Origin: Dechloromonas hankyongensis
GTDB taxonomy: Bacteria; Pseudomonadota; Gammaproteobacteria; Burkholderiales; Rhodocyclaceae
Assembly: GCF_022012295.1 (NCBI RefSeq)
Contig: NZ_JAKLTN010000002.1
Span: 1,240,001 to 1,304,000 of the forward strand
Direction of reading: 5' to 3'
DNA: 64,000 bases
Part shown: positions 7,129 through 40,106 of the stretch, piece after piece
Layout of the letters: the number at the start of each line of letters is the position of its first letter
Numbering within the stretch: position 1 is the stretch's first letter
Notes under the pieces: model-generated
Database searches by the model: none
Seen by the model: only the letters and a program-made list of their open reading frames with translations
What the model was told of the DNA's origin: nothing
Translations under genes and position numbers: made by a program

Positions 7129-8802
7129 ATGTACAAATACGATGCCATCGACCGTCAACTGATCAACGAACGCGTTGCCCAGTTCGGCGATCAGGTTCGC
7201 CGCTGGAAAGCCGGCGAACTGAGCGATGACGAATTCCGCCCACTGCGCCTCCAGAACGGCCTCTACATCCAGCGCCATGCGCCGATGTTCCGCATCGCCG
7301 TGCCGTACGGCATGATGAATTCCGCCCAGCTGCGCACCCTGGCCAAGGTCGCCCGTAAATACGACCGCGGCTATGGTCACTTCACGACTCGCCACAACCT
7401 GCAGCTGAACTGGCCCAAGGTCGAAGACGTGCCGGCGATCCTCGCCGAGCTGGCCGAAGTCGAGATGCATGCCATCCAGACCTCCGGCAACTGCCTGCGC
7501 AACATCACCACCGACCAGTTCGCCGGCGTCGCCGCCGACGAGATCATCGACCCCCGCCCGCTGGCCGAGATCATGCGCCAGTGGACCACCTTCCATCCGG
7601 AATTCGCCTTCCTGCCGCGCAAATTCAAGATCGCCATTTCCGGCACCCAGGAAGACCGTGCCGTGACCTGGTTCCACGACATCGGCCTGCATCTGAAGCA
7701 GGTCGACGGCCAGGTCGGCTTCACCGTCATCGTCGGCGGCGGTCTCGGCCGTACGCCGATCCGCGGCGAAATCGTGCGCGACTTCCTGCCCTGGCAGGAC
7801 ATCCTGTCCTACTGCGAAGCCATCCTGCGCGTCTATAACCGCTACGGCCGCCGCGACAACGCCTACAAGGCCCGCATCAAGATCCTCGTCCAGGCGCTCG
7901 GCGTCGATGCCTTCCGCGAGCAGGTCGAAGCCGAATGGGCGCACGGCAGGGGCGGTCCGATGACAATCACCCAGGCCGAATACGACCGCGTCGCCGCCCA
8001 CTTCACCGCCCCGGCCTACGAAACGGTCGGCGCCATCGACCTGCCGGCCGACAAGGCCTTCCAACGCTGGCTGGAACGCAACACCCACGCCCACAAGGCG
8101 GCCGGCTACGCGGCCGTCACGCTGTCGCTCAAGCAGCACGGCGTCGCGCCGGGCGACATCACCTCCGACCAGATGGAAGCCGTCGCCGACCTGGCCGACC
8201 GCTACAGCTTCGGCGAACTGCGCATCAGCCACGAGCAGAACATCATCCTGGCCGACGTCAAGAAATCGGAGCTTTTCGAAGTCTGGGAAAAAGCCAAAGC
8301 CGCCGGCCTGGCGACGCCGAACATCGGCCTGCTGACCGGCATCATCTGCTGCCCGGGCGGCGATTTCTGCGACCTGGCCAATGCCAAGTCCATCCCCATC
8401 GCCACCGCCATCCAGGCCCGCTTCGACGACCTGGACTACCTGTTCGACATCGGCGACATCGACCTCAACATCTCCGGTTGCATGAACGCCTGCGGCCATC
8501 ACCACGTCGGCCACATCGGCGTGCTCGGCGTGGACAAGAACAACGACGAGTTCTACCAGGTCACCCTCGGCGGCCGCCAGGGCAACGACGCCAAGCTCGG
8601 CAAAGTCATCGGCCCGTCCTTCTCGGCCAACGAAATGCCGGATGCCGTCGAGAAGATCATCAAGGTCTACCTCGAAAACCGCCATGCCGACGAGCGTTTC
8701 CTCGACACCTTCGATCGCATCGGCATCGACCCGTTCAAGAACCGCGTTTACGAAGGTCGTGCCCACGGCAAGGCCAAGAACGCAGAAGTGGAGGCCGCAT
8801 AA
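7129..8802 (+). CDS. cysI: Sulfite reductase, siroheme/[4Fe-4S] hemoprotein
   Basis: A 557-residue nitrite/sulfite reductase hemoprotein. Two ferredoxin-like half-domains and two siroheme-binding domains are visible: RNGLYIQRH-type and RHNLQLNW patterns near residues 45-90, then GNCLRNIT near 120. The cluster ligands are C408-x5-C414 (in GIICCPGGDFC) and C451-x3-C455 (in SGCMNACGHH). It reduces sulfite to sulfide with six electrons. Its place between a TSUP permease and DUF934/cysH, next to cysB, argues for sulfite rather than nitrite. No flavoprotein CysJ is in the window; in this gene arrangement the electron donor is likely ferredoxin or an unlinked reductase. Overlaps the next gene by TAATG. 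Confidence 0.93.
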   Translation: MYKYDAIDRQLINERVAQFGDQVRRWKAGELSDDEFRPLRLQNGLYIQRHAPMFRIAVPYGMMNSAQLRTLAKVARKYDRGYGHFTTRHNLQLNWPKVEDVPAILAELAEVEMHAIQTSGNCLRNITTDQFAGVAADEIIDPRPLAEIMRQWTTFHPEFAFLPRKFKIAISGTQEDRAVTWFHDIGLHLKQVDGQVGFTVIVGGGLGRTPIRGEIVRDFLPWQDILSYCEAILRVYNRYGRRDNAYKARIKILVQALGVDAFREQVEAEWAHGRGGPMTITQAEYDRVAAHFTAPAYETVGAIDLPADKAFQRWLERNTHAHKAAGYAAVTLSLKQHGVAPGDITSDQMEAVADLADRYSFGELRISHEQNIILADVKKSELFEVWEKAKAAGLATPNIGLLTGIICCPGGDFCDLANAKSIPIATAIQARFDDLDYLFDIGDIDLNISGCMNACGHHHVGHIGVLGVDKNNDEFYQVTLGGRQGNDAKLGKVIGPSFSANEMPDAVEKIIKVYLENRHADERFLDTFDRIGIDPFKNRVYEGRAHGKAKNAEVEAA

Positions 8803-9308
8803 TGGCGCAACTGATCAAAAACGGCGCCGCCGCGACCGATAGCTGGAATACCCTGGAACTGACCGAAGGCGAAACGCCGGAAACCGTGGCCCTGCCGGCC
8901 GGCGAGGTCATCTTCCCGCTCGCCGTGTGGCAGGCGCGCAAGGCCGAGATCGCCGCCCGGCCGCATATCGGTCTACTGCTGCAATCGGGTGACCGCGTCG
9001 AGGACGTGGCCGACGACCTCGCGTCCTTCGCCGTCATCGCCGTTCATTTCCCGAAATTCGTCGATGGCCGCGGCTATTCGACCGCCGCCCTGATTCGCCA
9101 GCGCTACGGCTACACCGGCGAACTGCGTGCCGTCGGCGACGTGCTGCATGATCAGCTGTTCTTCATGCGCCGCGTCGGTTTCGACAGCTATGCGCTGAAA
9201 GACGGCAAGAACCTGGCCTACGCCCTCGAAGCCGGCTTCACGCCATTCGGCGATGCCTACCAGGGTGCCACCACCCAGCCCCAACCCTATTTCCGCCGTC
9301 GCGCCTGA
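8802..9308 (+). CDS. DUF934 protein linked to sulfite reductase
   Basis: A 168-residue soluble protein of the DUF934 family, nearly always next to cysI and cysH in proteobacteria. Recognisable elements are VALPAGEVIFPLAVW near residue 30, FPKFVDGRGYSTAALIRQRY near 85-105, and GELRAVGDVLHDQLFFMRR with GFDSYAL near 107-135. No cofactor motif is visible. Its function is unknown; co-occurrence suggests an accessory to sulfite reduction (for example electron delivery or assembly), which is inference. The start ATG overlaps the cysI stop (TAATG), indicating tight coupling. Confidence 0.88.
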   Translation: MAQLIKNGAAATDSWNTLELTEGETPETVALPAGEVIFPLAVWQARKAEIAARPHIGLLLQSGDRVEDVADDLASFAVIAVHFPKFVDGRGYSTAALIRQRYGYTGELRAVGDVLHDQLFFMRRVGFDSYALKDGKNLAYALEAGFTPFGDAYQGATTQPQPYFRRRA

Positions 9309-9317
9309 GACCCCGAG

Positions 9318-10037
9318 ATGTCGCCCAGCCTGCTCAATATCACCCCGGAACTGACCGCCAGCGTCGCCACCAAGACCGCCGCCGTCAAGGTGCTGCTCAC
9401 TGACATCGCCGGCAACTGGTCGCCGGCCGCCTTCGCCAACAGCCTGGGCGCCGAGGACATGGTGCTGACCGACCTCATCGTCAAGGCCAAGCTGCCGATC
9501 GAGATCTTCAGCCTGGATACCGGCCGTCTGCCGCTGGAAACCTACGACCTGATCGCCGCGGTGCAAAAGCACTACGACCTGAAGCTGAAGGTCTATTTCC
9601 CGCAGGCCGAGGAAGTCGAAAGCTACGTCCGCCAACACGGCATCAACGCCTTCTACGATTCGGTCACCCTGCGCAAGGCCTGCTGTTATGCGCGCAAGGT
9701 CGAACCGCTGAAGCGCGCCCTGGCCGGCAAGCGCGCCTGGATCACCGGCCTGCGCGCCCAGCAGGCGGCCACACGTGTCGGCCTGCCCTTCCGCGAATAC
9801 GATGAAGGCAACGGCCTGGAGAAATTCAATCCGCTGTCCGACTGGACGGAAAAGGAAGTGTGGACCTACATCAAGCAGCACGCCGTGCCGTACAACGCGC
9901 TGCACGACAAGTTCTACCCCAGCATCGGCTGCGCCCCCTGTACGCGTGCCATTTCGCCGGGCGAGGACGTGCGCGCCGGCCGTTGGTGGTGGGAAAACCC
10001 CGAATCCAAGGAATGTGGACTGCACGTCAAGGCCTGA
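9318..10037 (+). CDS. cysH: Adenylylsulfate (APS) reductase, iron-sulfur CysH type
   Basis: A 239-residue PAPS/APS reductase. The adenylyl-binding region includes SLGAEDMVLTDLI (42-54) and SLDTGRLPLETY (65-76). It carries the cysteine set of the [4Fe-4S] APS-reducing subtype: C122-C123 in RKACCYARK, C205-x2-C208 in GCAPCTR, and the catalytic C233 in ECGLH. That set is absent from the PAPS-only enzymes of enterics, so the substrate is most likely APS, and no APS kinase (CysC) is needed; none is present here. It makes sulfite with thioredoxin as donor, feeding CysI. It ends the operon; a clear terminator follows. Confidence 0.93.
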   Translation: MSPSLLNITPELTASVATKTAAVKVLLTDIAGNWSPAAFANSLGAEDMVLTDLIVKAKLPIEIFSLDTGRLPLETYDLIAAVQKHYDLKLKVYFPQAEEVESYVRQHGINAFYDSVTLRKACCYARKVEPLKRALAGKRAWITGLRAQQAATRVGLPFREYDEGNGLEKFNPLSDWTEKEVWTYIKQHAVPYNALHDKFYPSIGCAPCTRAISPGEDVRAGRWWWENPESKECGLHVKA

Positions 10038-10067
10038 TCGCTGCAACGATCCTCTGCCCGACCGACC

Positions 10068-10096
10068 AAGCCCGGCTCCATGCCGGGCTTTTCTTT
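10068..10096 (+). terminator. Rho-independent terminator after cysH
   Basis: A 9-bp stem AAGCCCGGC / GCCGGGCTT around a 5-base loop (TCCAT), followed by TTCTTTT. It ends the sulfur operon. Confidence 0.85.
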
Positions 10097-10169
10097 TGTG
10101 GGCGGTGATGCGCGCTTGGCGAAACCGATTTACCATGTGTCGCACATGATGCTTTTTCGACCCGGAATA

Positions 10170-10189
10170 CTTGCTATGGATAGAGCAAG
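10170..10189. promoter_or_regulatory. Inverted repeat upstream of the penicillin-binding protein gene
   Basis: CTTGCT-ATGGATAG-AGCAAG, a perfect 6-bp inverted repeat with an 8-base spacer, 52 bases before the start codon. It could be an operator or a leader hairpin. I see no clear -35/-10 pair around it. Confidence 0.35.
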
Positions 10190-10241
10190 GGCCGGTTGAA
10201 AAATTACTCACATAACACTTACAGACGCCCAGCACCCATCG

Positions 10242-13200
10242 ATGTCAGGTATCGCGCCCAACGAAAAAAGCCAGCCTCGACGCTGGAAGCTTTATCTTTC
10301 TGTTTCCGTCCTTGCCCTTGGCGCCGTCGCCGGTACCGTTGCCTGGATCGAGCTGCAGGAGTCCTCCTTCCAGGCCGACTACTTCGCCCGACTGGCCAAG
10401 ACCTCGACGTGGACCGTCGAACCGGGTGAAGACAAGAGCATCTGGCTACCGAGCAGCGGCCCCTACGAACAGCGCCTCGGTTATGCCCAGCTCAAGGGCT
10501 TCCTGCCCCGCATGGCCAGTGCCGGCTTCACCATTACCGCCCAGGCGCGGCAGTCGCAGGGCTTCCGCGACATCGTCAATCAAGGGCATTTCCCGATTTA
10601 TCGCGAAAAGTCGCGGGCCGGCCTGACCATTCTCGATCGCCACGACAAGGCGCTCTACGACAGCCAGTATCCGCGGGTGCAATACGCCGATTTCGAGACC
10701 ACACCTTCCGTGCTGGTCGAAGCCCTGCTCTTCATCGAAAACCGCGACCTGCTCGACCCCAATACCCCGAAACGCAACCCAGCCGTCGACTGGGGCCGGC
10801 TGACCCGGGTCGCTGCCGGCCAGGCTATGCGCCAGGTCAATCTGGGCGGCGGACGGGCCGGCGGCAGCACGCTGGCCACGCAGATCGAGAAATTCCGCCA
10901 TTCCCCCGGCGGCCGCACCCACGACACCGACGACAAGTACCACCAGATGATGTCGGCCGCCCTGCGCGCCTACCAGGACGGCGAGGAAACCCTGGCGGCG
11001 CGCCGCCGCATCGTGCTCGACTTCATCAATTCCGTTCCGCTCGGCGGCATTCCCGGCTACGGTGAGGTCAATGGCCTGGGCGATGGCCTGTGGGCCTGGT
11101 ACGGCCAGGATTTTGCCCGCGTCAATCGTCTGTTGGCCGATCCCAGCGCCGACCTGACCGAACGCGCCCAGGCCTTCAAGCAGGCGCTGTCGCTCTTTGT
11201 CGCCCAGCGCCGCCCGTCCGGCCTGCTCGGCGACACCACCGGGCGCCTCAACGCCCTGACCGACAGCTACATCCGTCTGCTCGCCGAAGACAAGCTGATC
11301 CCCGCCGATTTGCGCGAAGCCGCCCTCCAGGTGGAAATCCACCCGGCACGCCAGGCACGGCCCGGCGAAGAAGTTTCCTTCGTCGAACGCAAGGCGGTCA
11401 ATGACATCCGCAGCACGCTCAGCGACCTGCTCGACGTCGAAAACCTCTACGCCCTCGACCGCTACGACCTGACCGTCCATACCACCCTCGACGGCCCCAG
11501 CCAGCAGGCGGTGACGCGCATCCTCAACCGCCTCGCCGACCCGGCCTTTCTGGCCTGTGCCGGCCTCAAGGAAACCCGCCTGCTCGACAAGGGCGACCCC
11601 AAACAGGTCAATTACAGCCTGACCCTCTACGAGCGCACGCCGAACGCCAACGTGCTGCGCATCCAGGCCGACAACCTCGACCAGCCGCTCGACATCAACG
11701 CCGGCACCAAGCTCGATCTCGGCTCCAGCGCCAAGTTCCGCACCCTGGTCTCCTACCTGCTGGTCGTCGCCGACCTGCACAAGCGCTACGGGAGCATGCC
11801 GACCGAGGAACTGGCCAAGCTGCCGCGTCATCCGGCCGACCGCCTGAGCAACTGGGTCATCGACACCTTGCGTGCCAAGCCGGAGATGACGCTGGAAGCC
11901 CTGCTCGAAGCGGCGATGGAGCGCCGCTACTCGGCCAGCCCCGGCGAAACCTTCTTTACCGGCGGCGGCATCCACCGCTTCAGCAATTTCAAGCACGAAG
12001 ACGACGGCAAGAACCCCAGCGTGGCCGAGGCGCTCGAACAATCGGTCAATCTGGCCTTTGTCCGCATCATGCATGACGTCGTCCATTACCACGCCTACGA
12101 GGCGGTCGATGCCCCGGCGCGCGGGCTGCGCGACAAGACCGACGACGAAACCCGCCAGGCTTTCCTCAACCGCTTCGCCGAACGCGAAGGCCTGGGCTTC
12201 CTGCGCACCTACTGGCACAAGTACCGCGACGTGGCGCCGGAAGATCGCCTGGAAGTGCTCAGCGACTCGGTTCCCGCCCGCCCCGTGCCACAGGCCGCCG
12301 CCTACCTGAGCGTGCTGCCGAAGAGCGACTTCGCCAGCTTCACCGCCTTCATGCGCAAGCAGCTGGGCGACAAGGCCGGCACCGACGCCGGCCTGCGCAA
12401 GCTATTCGACGCCCACGCCACCCGCCAATACAGCCTGGCCGACCAGGGCTACCTGGCCCGCGTGCATCCGCTCGAACTGTGGCTGGTCCGCCACCTGCAG
12501 AGCGAGCCGAAAGCGACGCTCAAGGACATCGTGCCGGCCAGCGTCGAAGCCCGCCGCGATGCCTCGAAATGGCTGTTCGCCCCGCGCTTCAAGCATGCCC
12601 AGCAGGTGCGCATCGACATCGTCGTCGAAGTCGCCGCCTTCGAGCGCATCGCCGAGGAATGGCGACGCCTGGGTTACCCCTTCGAACATCTGGTGCCCTC
12701 GCTGGCCACCTCGATTGGCAGTTCGGCCGACCGGCCGGCCGCACTGGCCGAACTGATGGGCATCGTGGTCAATGACGGCATCCGCCGCCCGACCGTGCGT
12801 ATCGACGAACTGCACTTCGCGACCAACACCCCGTTCGAGACCCGCCTGCAGCGTCAAACCGAAGCCGGCCAGCGCGTGATGCCGGTCGAGGTCGCCCAGG
12901 TCACCCGCCGCGCTCTGCTGCGCGTGGTCAACAGCGGCACGGCGCGCCGCATCAAGGACGCCTACAAGGACAACGAGGAAAAGCCGCTGCTGGTCGGCGG
13001 CAAGACAGGCACCGGCGACCACCGCTCCAAGGTCATCGGTGCCGGTGGCGAAGTGCGCAGCGCCAAGGTGATGAACCGGGCGGCGACCTTCGCCTTCTAC
13101 ATCGGCGACCGCTTCTACGGCGTGGTCACCGCCTTCGTTCCCGGCTCGAAGGCGGCCGGTTACGATTTCACGTCGGCGCTGCCGGTGCAGATCATGAAGG

Positions 13201-13268
13201 AAATGGAACCCGCTCTGCGCCCGCTGATCGCGGACCGCCCCGCCGCGGAAGGCAAGTGCAAGGGCTAA
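10242..13268 (+). CDS. Large divergent class A penicillin-binding protein (GT51 plus transpeptidase)
   Basis: A 1008-residue membrane-anchored murein synthase. One N-terminal membrane helix spans residues 17-36. The GT51 glycosyltransferase region (about 120-300) has the catalytic Glu in FIENRD (E166) and GGSTLATQ (207-214). However, the usual EDRxF reads ENRDL, and the RKxxE element reads DKYHQ, so the second acidic position looks changed. The penicillin-binding domain has all three motifs: SxxK at S495-K498 (GSSAKF), SxN at 601-603 (QSVNLAF), and KTGT at 921-924. About 100 residues precede the GT domain, and the span between SxN and KTG is unusually long. It would polymerise and cross-link peptidoglycan; transglycosylase activity should be treated as unproven. 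It stands alone between cysH and the acetate kinase fusion. Confidence 0.8.
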   Translation: MSGIAPNEKSQPRRWKLYLSVSVLALGAVAGTVAWIELQESSFQADYFARLAKTSTWTVEPGEDKSIWLPSSGPYEQRLGYAQLKGFLPRMASAGFTITAQARQSQGFRDIVNQGHFPIYREKSRAGLTILDRHDKALYDSQYPRVQYADFETTPSVLVEALLFIENRDLLDPNTPKRNPAVDWGRLTRVAAGQAMRQVNLGGGRAGGSTLATQIEKFRHSPGGRTHDTDDKYHQMMSAALRAYQDGEETLAARRRIVLDFINSVPLGGIPGYGEVNGLGDGLWAWYGQDFARVNRLLADPSADLTERAQAFKQALSLFVAQRRPSGLLGDTTGRLNALTDSYIRLLAEDKLIPADLREAALQVEIHPARQARPGEEVSFVERKAVNDIRSTLSDLLDVENLYALDRYDLTVHTTLDGPSQQAVTRILNRLADPAFLACAGLKETRLLDKGDPKQVNYSLTLYERTPNANVLRIQADNLDQPLDINAGTKLDLGSSAKFRTLVSYLLVVADLHKRYGSMPTEELAKLPRHPADRLSNWVIDTLRAKPEMTLEALLEAAMERRYSASPGETFFTGGGIHRFSNFKHEDDGKNPSVAEALEQSVNLAFVRIMHDVVHYHAYEAVDAPARGLRDKTDDETRQAFLNRFAEREGLGFLRTYWHKYRDVAPEDRLEVLSDSVPARPVPQAAAYLSVLPKSDFASFTAFMRKQLGDKAGTDAGLRKLFDAHATRQYSLADQGYLARVHPLELWLVRHLQSEPKATLKDIVPASVEARRDASKWLFAPRFKHAQQVRIDIVVEVAAFERIAEEWRRLGYPFEHLVPSLATSIGSSADRPAALAELMGIVVNDGIRRPTVRIDELHFATNTPFETRLQRQTEAGQRVMPVEVAQVTRRALLRVVNSGTARRIKDAYKDNEEKPLLVGGKTGTGDHRSKVIGAGGEVRSAKVMNRAATFAFYIGDRFYGVVTAFVPGSKAAGYDFTSALPVQIMKEMEPALRPLIADRPAAEGKCKG

Positions 13269-13316
13269 GGCCGCCCCACACTCAGGGAAATCCACACTTT
13301 GCTGCAATGCAACACA

Positions 13317-13340
13317 ATGGTAGCCTAGGCACCATAAAAT
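13317..13340 (+). promoter_or_regulatory. Palindromic operator candidate and -10 element before the fusion gene
   Basis: ATGGTAGCCTAGGCACCAT (13317-13335) is almost perfectly palindromic: an 8-bp palindrome GCCTAGGC flanked by ATGGT and ACCAT, with one extra A. It abuts a -10-like TAAAAT (13335-13340) that lies 24 bases before the start codon of the fusion gene, so it occupies the expected -35/spacer zone. That position suits a repressor or activator site. The regulator is unknown. Confidence 0.45.
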
Positions 13341-13364
13341 AACGCCGTCCAAGCGAGAAACAGC

Positions 13365-15671
13365 ATGAGTGAAATTGATCTGAAGCGCTTCTTCCTCGAG
13401 CAGGTCCGTCTGTTCGAAAACTTCCCGGCCGAAAAGGTCGAGGAAATCGTCATCAAATCGCGGCTGGCCACCTTCGAGGGTAACGAGGCGATCCTCGAAA
13501 CCGGCGACGAGGGCAAGGTTTTCGGCGTGCTGATCAGCGGCCACGCCGAGATTTCGATGACCGACAACACCGGCACGCGCAGCGTGGTTGGCCAGCTCGA
13601 AGCCGGCGACGTGTTCGGCGTGCTGTCGCTGCTCACCGGCGAGCGCGTCACGGCCGATGTGATCGCCGGCAACCGCTGCTTCGCCCTGATGATCCCGCAG
13701 GACGTGTTCAACACGCACATCCTGGCCAATCCGAAGGCCGTCGCCTATCTGTCCCGCCTGCTCGCCGAGCGCACCCGCGCCATTTCGCTCGACCAGGCCA
13801 ATGCCCCGGCCAAATCGGACGACCCCTACGCGCTGTCTCTGCACACCAACCAGCCGGGCAAGGTCGTCGTCCTCAATGTCGGCATCAGCCAGATTCATTT
13901 CGGCATCTACGATACCGAGGAAAGCGGCGCCGACGTCCATGGCATCATCGACCACGCCGACCAGCAGGCCACCCACATCACGGTCATGGTCGGCCCGCAG
14001 CAGAAGAGCATGGAACACGCCCCGTTCAAGCTCTCCGACCTGTTCACGGTGATGCGTGAAGCCACCGCCCTGCTCGGTCCGGCCTTCACCTTCCACCCCG
14101 AGGACGTCACCGCCATCGGCCACCGCGTCGTGCATGGCGGCAACCGCTTCTCCAGCTCGGTGGTCATCACCCCGGCGGTCATCGCCGACATCGAGGAACT
14201 GGCCGTCTTCGCGCCGCTGCACAACCCGGCCAACGTGGCCGGCATCCGCGTCGCCCAGAAGCAATTCCCCAATGTGCCGCAGGTCGCCGTTTTCGACACC
14301 GCCTTCCACCAGACGCTGGCCCCCTACGCCTACCTGTATGGCCTGCCCTACGAGCTGTACAAGCAGCACGGCATCCGCCGCTACGGCTTCCACGGCACGT
14401 CGCACCGCTACGTGTCGCTGAAGTCGGCCGAAGTGCTGAAGCGCCCGTTGGGCGAACTGGAAATCGTCTCCTGCCACCTCGGCATCGGCGCCTCGCTGTG
14501 CGCCATCGACCATGGCCGCTCGATCGACACCACCATGGGCATGACGCCGAGCGACGGCCTGATCATGCCCAGCCGCTCGGGCAGCATCGATCCGGCAGTG
14601 ATGATCCACCTGATGGAACAGCACAACATGTCGCCCGAGCAGCTGTCCACGCTGATCAACAGCGAAAGCGGCCTGAAGGGCATTTCCGGCATCTCGAGCG
14701 ACATCCGCGACATCGAGGCGGCAGCGGCCGACGGTCACCACCGCGCCCTCCTCGCCCACAAGGCCTACTGCTATCAGGTGCGCAAGAATATCGGCGCCTA
14801 TGTCGCGGCCATGGGCGGCATCGACGTCCTGGCCTTCACCGGCGATGTCGGCGAAATCAGCGCCACGGTGCGCAGCCTGGCCTGCCAGGGCCTCGAATTC
14901 ATGGGCATCAAGCTCGACGAGGAAAAGAACCGCAACCTCGGCCGCATCGATGACTACGCGGTGATTTCGACCGACGATTCGCCGGTCACCGTCCTCGTCG
15001 TCACCAACGACGACGAACGCCTGGTGGCTTGGGAAACCTTGCGCGCCATCGAGCGCAACGCCCTGTTGCTGGCCGCCAATGCCGAAGATACGCCGATTCC
15101 GGTCGAGATTTCCGCCCACCACGTGCATCTGTCGCAAGCCGACGTCGAGGCGCTGTTCGGCCCGGGCCACCAGCTGACGCCGAAGAGCGAGCTGTCGCAG
15201 CCCGGCCAGTTCGCCTGCGAGGAGCAGGTCCATCTGGTCGGCCCCAAGGGGCGCATCGCCAAGGTGCGTGTCCTCGGTCCGACCCGTAAGGAAACCCAGG
15301 TCGAGATCGCGATGACCGAGCAGTTCAAGCTCGGCATCCAGCCGCCGATCCGCCAGTCCGGCGACCTGGCCGGCACGCCGGGCATCACGCTCGAAGGCCC
15401 GTACGGATCAACGACCATCGAGCGCGGCGTGGTCTGCGCCCAGCGTCACATCCACATGACGCCGGAAGACGCCATGCGTTTCCATGTCCGCGACAACTAC
15501 GTCGTCCGCGTGCGCATCGAAGGTGAACGCCAGCTGATTTTCGGTGACGTCGTCTGCCGCGTCAGCCCGAGCTTCCGCCTGGCCATGCATATCGACACCG
15601 ACGAAGGCAACGCCGGCAACATCCAGACCGGCATGCTCGGCTACATCGAGGAAATCCAGAGCCGGCACTAG
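13365..15671 (+). CDS. Fusion: cNMP-binding-like domain, acetate kinase-like domain, PduL phosphotransacylase
   Basis: One uninterrupted 768-residue chain with three parts. Residues 8-130 are a cyclic-nucleotide-binding (CRP-like) beta-roll (ILETGDEGKVFGVLISGHAE, GDVFGVLSLLTGE); the usual Gly-Glu and Arg of the phosphate pocket are replaced. Residues about 165-560 are acetate/propionate kinase: N171, R254 in GHRVVHGG, D311 in VFDTAFH, H343/H347 in FHGTSH, R404 in SRSG and E497 match catalytic positions. But the N-terminal loop reads NVGISQIH instead of NAGSSSLK, HLGNG reads HLGIG, and GGIGEN reads GDVGEI. Residues about 578-768 are PduL, with zinc-type HHVHLS (585-590) and QRHIHM (693-698) and the closing HIDTDEGNA. 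Together this could run acyl-CoA to acyl phosphate to acid plus ATP under control of a small ligand. No adhesion or frameshift sign is seen; codon use matches neighbours. Whether all parts are active is unknown. Confidence 0.9.
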   Translation: MSEIDLKRFFLEQVRLFENFPAEKVEEIVIKSRLATFEGNEAILETGDEGKVFGVLISGHAEISMTDNTGTRSVVGQLEAGDVFGVLSLLTGERVTADVIAGNRCFALMIPQDVFNTHILANPKAVAYLSRLLAERTRAISLDQANAPAKSDDPYALSLHTNQPGKVVVLNVGISQIHFGIYDTEESGADVHGIIDHADQQATHITVMVGPQQKSMEHAPFKLSDLFTVMREATALLGPAFTFHPEDVTAIGHRVVHGGNRFSSSVVITPAVIADIEELAVFAPLHNPANVAGIRVAQKQFPNVPQVAVFDTAFHQTLAPYAYLYGLPYELYKQHGIRRYGFHGTSHRYVSLKSAEVLKRPLGELEIVSCHLGIGASLCAIDHGRSIDTTMGMTPSDGLIMPSRSGSIDPAVMIHLMEQHNMSPEQLSTLINSESGLKGISGISSDIRDIEAAAADGHHRALLAHKAYCYQVRKNIGAYVAAMGGIDVLAFTGDVGEISATVRSLACQGLEFMGIKLDEEKNRNLGRIDDYAVISTDDSPVTVLVVTNDDERLVAWETLRAIERNALLLAANAEDTPIPVEISAHHVHLSQADVEALFGPGHQLTPKSELSQPGQFACEEQVHLVGPKGRIAKVRVLGPTRKETQVEIAMTEQFKLGIQPPIRQSGDLAGTPGITLEGPYGSTTIERGVVCAQRHIHMTPEDAMRFHVRDNYVVRVRIEGERQLIFGDVVCRVSPSFRLAMHIDTDEGNAGNIQTGMLGYIEEIQSRH

Positions 15672-15773
15672 GGCGTGGCGCGGTAAGCGATGGGCTGCGC
15701 CGCCCCCTTGCCTTTCAGGTTTGCCCGGGCGCAGTCCCGCCGGCGGCGGTGAACAAACCCCCGTCGGGATGAA

Positions 15774-18656
15774 TCAGTGGCGGGCGCGAGCCAGCCACTT
15801 GGCCAGCACGCTGTAGAGCTCCACCGGATCGACCGGCTTCGGGATGAAGTCGTTCATGCCGGCGGCCAGACAACGTGCCCGATCCTCGGCGAAGGCGTTG
15901 GCGGTCATCGCCACGATGGGAATATCCCGCCCCTTTTCCATGTCGCGCATGTGCCGGGTCGCCGTCAATCCGTCCATGCCGGGCATCTGCATGTCCATCA
16001 GGACCAGGTCGTAATCGCCGCCGACCAGCCGGTCGAGCGCCTCCCGGCCGTCGCTGGCCGTATCGACGCGCAGACCGGTTTCGTCGAGCATGGCGACGGC
16101 GATTTCCCGATTGATCGGCTCATCCTCGACCAGCAGCACCCGACCCCCTGGGCAGGTCTGGCGAATACGCTCACAAGCACTATCCACCGTCAGCAAGGCC
16201 AGATCCCGCTCCGCTTCGCCGTCGGCTGCCGGATGCTTGGCAAAGTGCGCCGTCAGCCAGAAAGTGCTGCCTTGCCCCTCGACGCTGCGCGCTCCGGCAT
16301 CGCCGCCCATGAGCAGCGCCAACTTGTGGGTGATGGCCAGGCCCAGGCCGGTACCGCCGAAACGGCGGGTAATCGAGTTGTCGGCTTGTTCGAAGGCCTG
16401 GAACAGCCCGGGCAGGCGATCGGCCGGGATGCCGATGCCGGTATCGGTCACCTCGAACAGCACGACCAGGCCGCTCTCATCCTCGCTGGCCCGGCGGGCG
16501 GTCAAGCGCACGCTGCCGGTCTCGGTGAATTTGATCGCATTGCTGGTGTAGTTGAGCAGCGCCTGCTGCAGGCGGGTCTGATCGCCCAGCACCGACGGCA
16601 GGCCGGCTTCGCAATCGACCACGAAGGCGAGGTGCTTGGCCTCCGCCTTGTCGGACAGCATGGCGGCGACGTTGGCCAATGCCCGATCGACATGCAACGG
16701 CTCCTGCTCGAGCGCCACCTTGCCGACATCGATTTTGGACAGGTCGAGGATGGCGTTGATCGTTTCCAGCAGGTGCTCGCCGGCCAGCTCAAGCTGCCTC
16801 AGGCGCCCCGACTGTTCCGGCGACAGCTTGCCGCGGCGGATCAGGTAGGACATGCCGGTGATCGCGTTCAGCGGCGTCCGGATTTCATGCGACATGTTGG
16901 CGAGGAAGTTGCTCTTCGCCCGGCTGGCCGCTTCCGCGGCGCGGCGCGCCTCTTCCAGCTCGGCCGTGCGCTGGGCGACGATCTCTTCCAGGCGCAGGCG
17001 ATGGCGGCGCAACTCATCCTCGAAAACAATGCGCTCCGTGATATCGCGGCTGATGCCGAAGATGCCGGCCACGCGGTGCTGGTCATCGAAAAGGGGCCAC
17101 TTGTTGGTAGACACGTAGCCGCGCGTACCCTCGGCGTCGTAATACGGGTCGATCTTGTTGAGCAGCGGCTTGCCCTCGGCAAAGATCGCCTCTTCCTCTT
17201 CCTCGTAGAGGCGGGCGGTATCGGCCGGGAAAACCTCGCTGTCGTGCTTGCCCACCATGTCGCGCCAGTCGGCGTGGCCGGTGATCTCGGCCAGGGTTTG
17301 ACTGCAGAAGCGGAAGCGGCTTTGCGCATCCTTGAAATAGATGAAGTCGGTTGCCTGGTCGAGAAAGGCCTCGAAATCCCGGTTGAAATCCGCCAGTTCG
17401 CGCTGCGCCTGCTTGCGCGCCGTGATGTCGACATGCATGCCGACATAGACGAATTCGCCGCTGTGCTGACCGGGAACGGCAAACAGCGTGGACTCCAGCC
17501 AGCGCACCTGGCCGTCCCTGTCATGCGCCGAGCCCTCGTGAGGCCCGATGGCCGCTCCCGTCATCTTGACGCGCCCGATGGCGTCGGCAAAGGACCGGCA
17601 TTCCGCTTCCGACAGCATGAGCCGATCCAGCGTCTGCCCAACCGCCTCGACGGAAGACCAGCCGAACAGCGTTTCCGAGGCGCGATTCCAGTAGGTCACC
17701 CGACCCTCGTCGTCATACCACTGGACCGCCACGTTCGGTGTCGTCTCGAGCGTTGCCGCCAGTCGTTGGCGGGCCGAATCGGCCACGCTCCCCGCCCGCT
17801 CCACCCGCCGCAGCATGTGTAGCAGCCAGGCCAGCATGCCGAACATCAACACCCCGAGCAGCGCAAAGCCCACACGCAGCCAGCCGTTGTGCGGCGGCAT
17901 GGCCGACCAGCCACCGCGTGGCACGGCGCCCAATTGCCACGCCCCCTGCGGCAAGGGAATTTCGACCAGAACCGGCGATTCGCCAAACACCCCTGGGCGG
18001 CCGAAAAACACGTCGCCGTCCGCCCCCTTGCCATCGCGCCCGCGGATGGCAATTTCGATGCGTTGATCGGCCGGCAGCAGGCCGCTGCGGGAAAACAGGC
18101 TGTCCACGTCGATTACCGCGCTGATCATGCCCCAGAAGCGCTCTTCCTTGCTGCCCGGTTCCGTCAGATAGACGGGAAAGCGGGTAATCAGCCCGACGCC
18201 GCCCTGAACCAGCTGCACCGGCCCGGCCACGACAATCTGCCGACTGCTGCGCGCCCGCTCGAAGGCCTCGAACTGGGCCGGCAGATCGTGATAATCCTTG
18301 CCTACCGCCTTCTCGTTACCGTGCAGGGGATAGATCAGGCTGATCGTGCTCCCTTTGGCCACCGTGATGTTGCGCAGCAAATGACGCCCGGCGAAGAGCG
18401 GCTGGGCGGCCTGTTCGAAACGCGACTGGTCGATTCCTGGCTCCAGGGCGATGACGCTGAACAGGCCGCGCACCAGCTGAATGTCGCTGGTCAGGTTGCT
18501 CTCCAGCGCATCCTTGACCTTGTTCAGGCGCACGACCACGTCGGCCTTGAGGGCTGCGGCGTGTCGCTCGGCGTTGATTTGCTCGGTAAGATAGGTGGCC
18601 AGCAGCAAGCCGCCGGCAAGCAGGACCATGGCGAGATAGAGTATCCGGCGGCTCAC
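15774..18656 (-). CDS. CHASE-PAS-PAS hybrid sensor histidine kinase
   Basis: A 960-residue inner-membrane hybrid kinase. TM1 spans about residues 5-23, followed by a periplasmic CHASE-like sensor (about 40-235) and TM2 at 262-282. Two PAS domains follow (about 300-405 and 415-535, the second with YFKDAQSRFRF). HisKA has phospho-acceptor H580 in ANMSHEIRTPLNAI. The HATPase_c domain (about 680-795) has the N box NYTSNAIKF, DTGIGIP and GGTGLGL. A C-terminal receiver (about 828-945) has D878 in LVLMDMQMPGMDG. It senses an unknown extracellular cue and would pass phosphate to its receiver and then to an unlinked HPt or regulator. No partner gene is adjacent. It faces the fusion gene tail to tail across about 100 bases with no clear terminator. 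Confidence 0.92.
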   Translation of the reverse strand: MSRRILYLAMVLLAGGLLLATYLTEQINAERHAAALKADVVVRLNKVKDALESNLTSDIQLVRGLFSVIALEPGIDQSRFEQAAQPLFAGRHLLRNITVAKGSTISLIYPLHGNEKAVGKDYHDLPAQFEAFERARSSRQIVVAGPVQLVQGGVGLITRFPVYLTEPGSKEERFWGMISAVIDVDSLFSRSGLLPADQRIEIAIRGRDGKGADGDVFFGRPGVFGESPVLVEIPLPQGAWQLGAVPRGGWSAMPPHNGWLRVGFALLGVLMFGMLAWLLHMLRRVERAGSVADSARQRLAATLETTPNVAVQWYDDEGRVTYWNRASETLFGWSSVEAVGQTLDRLMLSEAECRSFADAIGRVKMTGAAIGPHEGSAHDRDGQVRWLESTLFAVPGQHSGEFVYVGMHVDITARKQAQRELADFNRDFEAFLDQATDFIYFKDAQSRFRFCSQTLAEITGHADWRDMVGKHDSEVFPADTARLYEEEEEAIFAEGKPLLNKIDPYYDAEGTRGYVSTNKWPLFDDQHRVAGIFGISRDITERIVFEDELRRHRLRLEEIVAQRTAELEEARRAAEAASRAKSNFLANMSHEIRTPLNAITGMSYLIRRGKLSPEQSGRLRQLELAGEHLLETINAILDLSKIDVGKVALEQEPLHVDRALANVAAMLSDKAEAKHLAFVVDCEAGLPSVLGDQTRLQQALLNYTSNAIKFTETGSVRLTARRASEDESGLVVLFEVTDTGIGIPADRLPGLFQAFEQADNSITRRFGGTGLGLAITHKLALLMGGDAGARSVEGQGSTFWLTAHFAKHPAADGEAERDLALLTVDSACERIRQTCPGGRVLLVEDEPINREIAVAMLDETGLRVDTASDGREALDRLVGGDYDLVLMDMQMPGMDGLTATRHMRDMEKGRDIPIVAMTANAFAEDRARCLAAGMNDFIPKPVDPVELYSVLAKWLARARH

Positions 18657-39745: not shown

Positions 39746-39892
<147 letters not shown>

Positions 39893-40021: not shown

Positions 40022-40106
<85 letters not shown>

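Follow-up and report, generated by a model that had tools for sequence, protein, structure and literature searches.

The pairing of acetate kinase (AckA) with a phosphotransacylase, Pta or PduL, is the textbook route of substrate-level phosphorylation, and AckA is taken to mean ATP. A gene in a 64,000-nucleotide stretch of Dechloromonas hankyongensis DNA (contig NZ_JAKLTN010000002.1, positions 1,240,001 to 1,304,000; hereafter the window) raises the question of whether this holds for a kinase domain that is built into a larger protein. The gene (window positions 13365-15671, on the plus strand, as are its domains and motifs below) encodes cNMP-like, AckA-like and PduL domains on one chain. The surprising part of the locus is that, in the window's lineage, the ATP-side residues of the kinase domain have been replaced in a coordinated manner and the acyl-phosphate side and PduL left intact, in genomes that also retain an ordinary AckA. 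Because the standard ADP/ATP-side residues are lost, the step from acyl phosphate and ADP to acid and ATP is doubtful, and the middle domain is, on balance, probably not an ordinary ADP/ATP acetate kinase in this lineage.

The three-domain chain and its kinase domain

The gene is a single frame of 768 codons, as a preliminary description of this DNA had stated, plus a stop (ATG at 13365, TAG at 15669-15671), with zero internal stops, and a Pfam and NCBIfam domain search bore out the order of domains given there. The cNMP_binding family (PF00027) matched residues 36-117 (positions 13470-13715; E 2e-14, above the curated cut-off), Acetate_kinase (PF00871) matched residues 166-555 (13860-15029; E 8e-135, 450 bits against a cut-off of 22) and PTAC (PF06130) matched residues 579-753 (15099-15623; E 2e-78, 262 bits, above the curated cut-off). 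The NCBIfam ackA subfamily profile (TIGR00016) scored 432 bits against a cut-off of 293, the phosphate propanoyltransferase profile was also over its cut-off, and the motifs HHVHLS, QRHIHM and HIDTDEGNA named in the preliminary description are present. An AlphaFold model built from a 26-sequence alignment was of moderate quality (mean predicted local distance difference test score 76, predicted template modelling score 0.55) and weakest at residues 142-154, 312-342 and 391-409; Foldseek matched it to the AckA structure 1g99 (template modelling score 0.84 by target length), to PduL 5cuo (0.93) and to cyclic-nucleotide-binding domains. No stop or frameshift separates the parts, and 78 distinct proteins share this uninterrupted three-domain frame, including those of the named strains Dechloromonas agitata, D. 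hortensis, D. denitrificans, Zoogloea ramigera, Thauera phenolivorans and Rhodocyclus purpureus. Together with low ratios of nonsynonymous to synonymous substitution (dN/dS), this rules out a frameshift, an assembly error or a chance open reading frame (ORF).

Relatives were collected with a peptide-pattern scan of the genomes of 84,980 species, which gave 70 loci; the scan used six short query peptides, and counts of distant relatives are lower bounds. The scan and genome searches yielded 84 ORFs (those under 300 residues excluded), or 78 three-domain proteins once 6 duplicates were removed. Kinase residues are numbered here as in MtACK, the AckA of Methanosarcina thermophila. We divided the proteins by the residue at the Gly331 position: 67 of the 78 (the window's type) have Asp, Glu or Gln there, and 11 (the other type) have Gly or Trp.

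Alignment to MtACK revealed that the nucleotide side of the ASKHA (acetate and sugar kinase, Hsc70, actin) domain is altered in four motifs of the window protein. In the PHOSPHATE1 loop NVGISQIHF (residues 171-179, positions 13875-13901), Ser10, Ser12 and Lys14 are replaced by Ile, Gln and His; in the PHOSPHATE2 loop CHLGIGAS (residues 370-377, 14472-14495), Asn211 is Ile; in LOOP3, MPSRSGSIDP (residues 401-410, 14565-14594), Gly239 is Pro and Arg241 is retained; and in the ADENOSINE loop FTGDVGEIS (residues 491-499, 14835-14861), Gly331 is Asp and Asn335 is Ile. Residue 407 is a Ser, as is its counterpart in MtACK, and was given no weight for that reason.

These changes run through the whole type, as all six ATP-side residues (Ser10, Ser12, Lys14, Asn211, Gly239 and Gly331) are replaced in 67/67 proteins, a count that is circular for Gly331, the column that defines the type. 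The Ser10 position holds Ile, Leu, Val or Met in all 67. The replacements at the other five positions are themselves conserved, which would support a middle domain that is something other than an ordinary ATP enzyme: Gln at Ser12 and His at Lys14 (66/67 each), Pro at Gly239 (64/67), Asp at Gly331 (63, with Glu in 3 and Gln in 1) and Ile at Asn211 (61, with Val in 4, Gln in 1 and Ala in 1). In addition, Arg285 is replaced by His in 60/67 (the window protein itself retains Arg), and the Mg2+ ligand Glu384 is Asp in the window protein and in 66/67 of its type. The acyl-phosphate and transfer residues Arg91, His123, Asp148, His180 and Arg241 are conserved in 78/78 three-domain proteins. Within the window's type, Glu385 is retained in 67/67 and Asn7 in 65/67, the exceptions (with Asp) being both tandem copies of Rhodocyclus purpureus.

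Passages of PMC4390882 describe what the replaced residues do in MtACK: Asn211 touches the beta-phosphate and Gly239, Gly331 touches the alpha- and beta-phosphates, and Arg285 lies planar to the adenine. Single changes at Asn211, Gly239 or Gly331 lowered specific activity about 6- to 200-fold with ATP still used, and Gly331 was called completely conserved among acetate kinases, that of Entamoeba histolytica excepted (PMC4390882). The standalone AckAs that we compared (n = 47) have Gly331 in 47, Gly239 in 47 and Asn211 in 46, and the two-domain AckA-PduL fusions L006, L007, L086 and L087, unlike the window's type, are canonical at all three positions in 4/4. Kinase stretches under 300 residues (L008, L085) are excluded from this comparison, and PHOSPHATE1 is readable in 36 or 37 of the 47 standalone AckAs and in 2 of the 4 two-domain rows.

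Change is also concentrated in the kinase when conserved columns are counted. Among columns conserved in both types, 16/128 differ between the types in the kinase, 1/81 in PduL and 1/14 in the cNMP domain. Relative to 62 other kinases (51 one- or two-domain proteins and the 11 other-type fusions), the window's type has lost 17/110 conserved columns, 10/29 in the ATP-side motifs versus 7/81 elsewhere (Fisher p = 0.002, descriptive only, with motif limits set post hoc).

The description's AckA-type kinase therefore stands as to profile and acyl-phosphate residues, and its ATP step is in doubt, with six ATP-side residues replaced. The protein could still be an ordinary channelled bifunctional enzyme that turns acyl-CoA, phosphate and ADP into acid, CoA and ATP through an altered but working ATP site, given that the transfer residues are retained, the kinase profile match is strong and channelling has been proposed for such fusions (in passages of PMC4784909). 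Weighed against the loss of 6/6 ATP-side residues in every member of the type, including the near-universal Gly331, and against the further kinases described below, we consider such an enzyme possible but doubtful.

Further kinases, carriers and descent

Genomes that carry the window's type also carry another acetate kinase. Of the 60 carriers in the window's family, we tested 39 (mostly the more complete ones), and a further AckA match was found in 39/39, as was a Pta-family match; this argues against the fusion being the ordinary ATP-forming enzyme. We read twenty of these further AckAs, one per genome: all have canonical PHOSPHATE1 and ADENOSINE motifs (20/20), and the Asn211 position carries Asn in 18 of them and Ser in the other 2. 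In the window genome, the further AckA (393 amino acids, canonical motifs) starts directly after a 481-amino-acid Pta-like frame, and this separate pair could run the ordinary ATP-linked route. The Pta-like frame (L188:2088-3533) matches the PTA_PTB profile at positions 102-319 only and may be a variant or fused phosphotransacylase.

Of the 11 other-type genomes, 6 yielded no AckA besides the fusion (metagenome-assembled genomes, or MAGs, in which absence is not proof). These six fusions are canonical at all six ATP-side positions, and the normal pathway may well be what the three-domain chain serves in such genomes, a point in favor of the bifunctional enzyme. The fusion is thus the sole kinase in 0/39 genomes of the window's type versus 6/11 of the other type (Fisher p = 3e-5, where the 39 are close kin and non-independent). 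The three other-type proteins with changed positions (L081, L082 and L091) come from genomes with further AckA-family matches, that of L081 being a fragment at a contig end; across the other type, changed motifs occur in 3/5 with a further AckA versus 0/6 without (Fisher p = 0.06). L081 and L082 (Chloroflexota, outside the window's clade) have Glu at Asn211 and Val or Pro at Gly239, as well as Ala or Trp at the Mg2+ ligand Glu384. L091, also outside the clade, has Trp at Gly331; the changes in all three are possible repeats of the one seen in the window's type.

These patterns bear on whether the kinase domain is a non-catalytic acyl-phosphate binder that feeds back on PduL, which would make the protein a self-sensing acetyl-phosphate enzyme. 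Such a binder would be consistent with the acyl-phosphate residues kept in 78/78, with a nucleotide side altered along two or three lines of descent (the window's clade, L081/L082 of Chloroflexota and the weakly placed L091), with the missing acidic ligand at Glu384 in L081 and L082, and with a further AckA-family match in every tested genome that has a changed fusion (39/39 plus 3/3, one a contig-end fragment). A mere binder, however, needs neither Asn7 (65/67) nor Asp148 (67/67) nor the acidic residues at 384 and 385, all of which the window's type retains, and outside the clade the link between changed motifs and a further AckA reaches only the p value of 0.06 given above. We tentatively place this reading first.

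The genus-named carriers of the window's type are Dechloromonas, Azonexus, Zoogloea, Thauera, Rhodocyclus and one Sulfuritalea MAG, and the remaining carriers are broadly labelled MAGs or genomes from the window's family. In NCBI taxonomy, Dechloromonas and Zoogloea belong to Rhodocyclales and Sulfuritalea to Nitrosomonadales. Within the window's family, the protein is present in 60/297 sampled genomes and 17/68 genera; the window's own genus accounts for at least 12 genomes among the matches listed, and the D. agitata homologue is 94% identical to the window protein. The other type comes from MAGs that bear the labels Myxococcota or Deltaproteobacteria, Bacteroidota, Planctomycetota, Chloroflexota and Pseudomonadota. 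The Planctomycetota protein L083 is an example of a fusion whose motifs are canonical. In Rhodocyclus purpureus the three-domain gene lies in tandem copies (L063:5346-7844 and 7848-10319), and genome G609 has a second such tandem pair.

We built a kinase tree of 57 rows with the motif columns left out (quick IQ-TREE run, midpoint root, deep branches weak). All 30 three-domain rows fell on one side of a branch (support 90 by the Shimodaira-Hasegawa-like approximate likelihood ratio test), and the 19 window-type rows formed one clade (support 100) on a long stem (0.68), which suggests a single origin of the three-domain chain, with the kinase rebuilt later in the window's line. L091 was placed beside this clade with weak support, and the standalone AckA of the window genome sat on a very long branch. 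The two-domain rows (n = 6) fell outside the three-domain group and split into two groups; we rejected two-domain fusions as direct ancestors because the kinase tree, quick and weak in its deep branches, places them elsewhere. Two of the two-domain loci have features of their own: on the Polaromonas plasmid pPNAP02 the AckA-PduL gene (L124:6833-8614) is flanked by fabI and a DUF3141 gene, with a gene for polyphosphate kinase 2 close by, and in Sinorhizobium meliloti RU11/001 the AckA-PduL match (L126:5998-7795) is annotated as two adjoining genes, the second a 189-base PduL/EutD piece.

All three domains are under purifying selection, as the median dN/dS of the window gene against 37 partners was low in each (kinase 0.157, PduL 0.11, cNMP domain 0.178). 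A decaying kinase domain is ruled out by its value of 0.157 and by the conserved replacements.

The PduL and cNMP-like ends and the gene surroundings

PduL sites were mapped by hand from an alignment to rPduL (5cuo), with numbering from passages of PMC4784909. The window protein has the zinc ligands His586, His588, Glu647, His695, His697 and His742 (rPduL His48, His50, Glu109, His157, His159 and His204) and the phosphate ligand Arg641 (Arg103). His586, His588, Arg641, Glu647, His695 and His697 are present in 78/78 and His742 in 77, the remaining row being truncated. This complete two-zinc and phosphate site suggests that PduL activity is likely intact.

The preliminary description had proposed allosteric control by a small ligand, and its premise of a cNMP-type fold is real. 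In domains of this kind, the glutamate of the FGE motif has a role in the phosphate binding cassette. We aligned the pocket of the beta-roll, VFGVLSLLTGERVTADV, by hand to protein kinase A (PKA) RIalpha and found it non-canonical: residue 95, the counterpart of the cyclic-phosphate arginine Arg209 (numbering from passages of PMC10959531), is Arg in 0/78 and instead Ile, Val, Thr, Leu, Met, Ser, Asn or Ala. The FGE glutamate (residue 86) is Val in 58/67 and Glu in 4/67 of the window's type, and residue 98 is Asp in 66/67. Both findings weaken control by cAMP or cGMP.

A cAMP- or cGMP-binding N-terminal domain that acts as a switch on the enzyme would have in its favor the clear profile match, the fold match and the FGE glutamate retained in 10/11 of the other type. 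An Arg also stands at the neighboring residue 94, one before the usual place, in 59/78; it could substitute for the lost arginine and leaves some doubt as to whether cAMP binding has been lost. In trypanosomatid PKA, replacement of the phosphate arginine goes with loss of the cAMP response and with nucleosides bound in place of cAMP (passages of PMC10959531). Because the phosphate arginine is absent in 78/78, the FGE glutamate is mostly lost in the window's type and this precedent exists, a cyclic-nucleotide switch on the window protein appears unlikely, and we rate a cAMP- or cGMP-driven one as distinctly improbable.

The three annotated neighbors of the window gene encode a sulfite reductase, a transglycosylase/transpeptidase and a sensor kinase, and the recurring flanks in its relatives are mostly sulfate assimilation genes, a penicillin-binding protein and sensor kinases. 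Flanking genes are unrelated in distant relatives, and on the chosen representatives annotated we rejected an operon or pathway drawn from neighbors. In an Anaerolineae MAG, the fusion lies directly 3' of a gene for a Na+-transporting decarboxylase beta subunit on the same strand (L082:6775-7977). A scan of window positions 13200-15850 for sigma-70-like promoters found no site and was uninformative. Elsewhere in the window lies a tandem pair of tRNA-Leu genes (39765-39849 and 40022-40106), both with anticodon CAG.

Proposed role and comparison with known systems

Taken together, these data are consistent with a protein whose PduL end would interconvert acyl-CoA plus phosphate and acyl phosphate plus CoA, and whose middle domain would handle the acyl phosphate that PduL makes or uses, ADP/ATP not being its ordinary partner. 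In the leading and still tentative reading, the kinase-like domain senses or gates acyl phosphate beside PduL; next comes the somewhat less probable case of a phosphoryl partner that is neither ADP nor ATP, phosphate for example. The N-terminal beta-roll would be a scaffold or a sensor of a ligand that is not a cyclic nucleotide.

Several observations weigh against this interpretation. MtACK mutants at these residues still use ATP slowly, and compensated ATP use is possible by analogy. Asp at Glu384 (66/67) and the retained Glu385 would fit a catalytic domain better than a pure sensor, and a form of the reading that uses phosphate or pyrophosphate sits poorly with the loss of positive charge (Lys14 to His, and Arg285 to His in 60/67) and gain of acid. 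The 19 window-type rows on the tree form one clade, so that the 67 proteins probably represent about one evolutionary event. Among the chosen representatives (10, 10 and 7 proteins annotated), no conserved gene neighborhood supports a pathway.

The fusion as such is not new. According to passages of PMC4784909, PduL domains are found within multidomain proteins, most of them annotated as acetate kinases, the AckA-PduL fusion homologues are without encapsulation peptides, and fusion may serve channelling. With the fusion and the channelling idea already in print, the three-domain architecture is a real, conserved variant of a known fusion. The preliminary description knew of no characterized protein with this three-part order, and our results agree: among 60 matched PDB sequences, none had a best stretch spanning more than one domain (save an overhang of a few residues), and no characterized three-domain protein was found in open-licence PMC titles and abstract beginnings, where subscription journals are mostly not covered.

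The carriers belong to an environmentally important clade that includes Dechloromonas, Azonexus, Zoogloea and Thauera, and some Dechloromonas have been reported to store polyphosphate (passages of PMC8630035). Automatic annotation likely reads the window-type protein as an acetate kinase, and if the proposed role is true, any metabolic model in which it forms ATP would be in error. A self-sensing enzyme would give the cell a regulator devoted to its acetyl phosphate, which donates phosphoryl and acetyl groups. Ranging from canonical to rebuilt fusions, the family would also be a natural series for studying the loss or change of the nucleotide in a kinase. The boldest reading is a self-sensing acyl-phosphate enzyme that arose in two or three lineages, in which PduL makes or drains acetyl phosphate and is tuned by an ADP-independent former kinase and by a beta-roll that no longer takes cyclic nucleotides, or, in another form, a bacterial acetate kinase that works without a nucleotide; we give it clearly less than even odds.

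The window protein shares with canonical AckA (1g99/1tuy) its fold and acyl-phosphate/transfer residues and differs in the replaced residues of PHOSPHATE1, PHOSPHATE2, LOOP3 and ADENOSINE. The acetate kinase of E. histolytica (4h0o), the sole one known in 2017 to use phosphate/pyrophosphate and not ATP (passages of PMC5517563), is the closest precedent for a kinase domain with a non-nucleotide phosphoryl partner. By hand alignment, Lys14, Asn211, Gly239, Gly331 and Asn335 are altered in both, and the transfer residues and acidic 384/385 retained in the window's type would suit such a partner. The replacing residues differ, however, since the 4h0o chain has Thr at Lys14, Thr plus one extra Gly at Asn211, Ser at Gly239, Gln at Gly331 and Glu at Asn335. 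The E. histolytica enzyme is also single-domain, retains Ser10 and Ser12, has that one extra PHOSPHATE2 residue and shares 29% identity with the window protein in the fold match. Its Gln-Met at 331-332 may close the pocket, but swapping these residues into MtACK lowered ATP use with no gain of phosphate or pyrophosphate use, and pocket access was judged not the sole determinant of the phosphoryl partner (passages of PMC5517563). With the positive charges lost and acid gained as well, we regard a partner such as phosphate or pyrophosphate as rather unlikely.

Two-domain AckA-PduL fusions (e.g., Polaromonas naphthalenivorans WP_011798166.1, annotated as an acetate/propionate family kinase) have the same order of AckA-type then PduL-type domain, and the cNMP-like domain is absent in the one scanned. 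PduL of Rhodopseudomonas palustris (5cuo) has the zinc ligands and the phosphate-binding arginine in common with the window's PduL, at 47-48% identity in the fold match; unlike it, the window PduL is part of a fusion, with no sign of microcompartment genes among the three immediate annotated neighbors (shell genes were not searched genome-wide). The N-terminal domain has the fold of cyclic-nucleotide-binding domains and, like the cAMP-independent PKA regulatory subunit of trypanosomatids, lacks the phosphate arginine; the nucleoside-binding glutamate of that subunit aligns by hand with residue 88 of the window protein, a Ser or Ala in 76/78.

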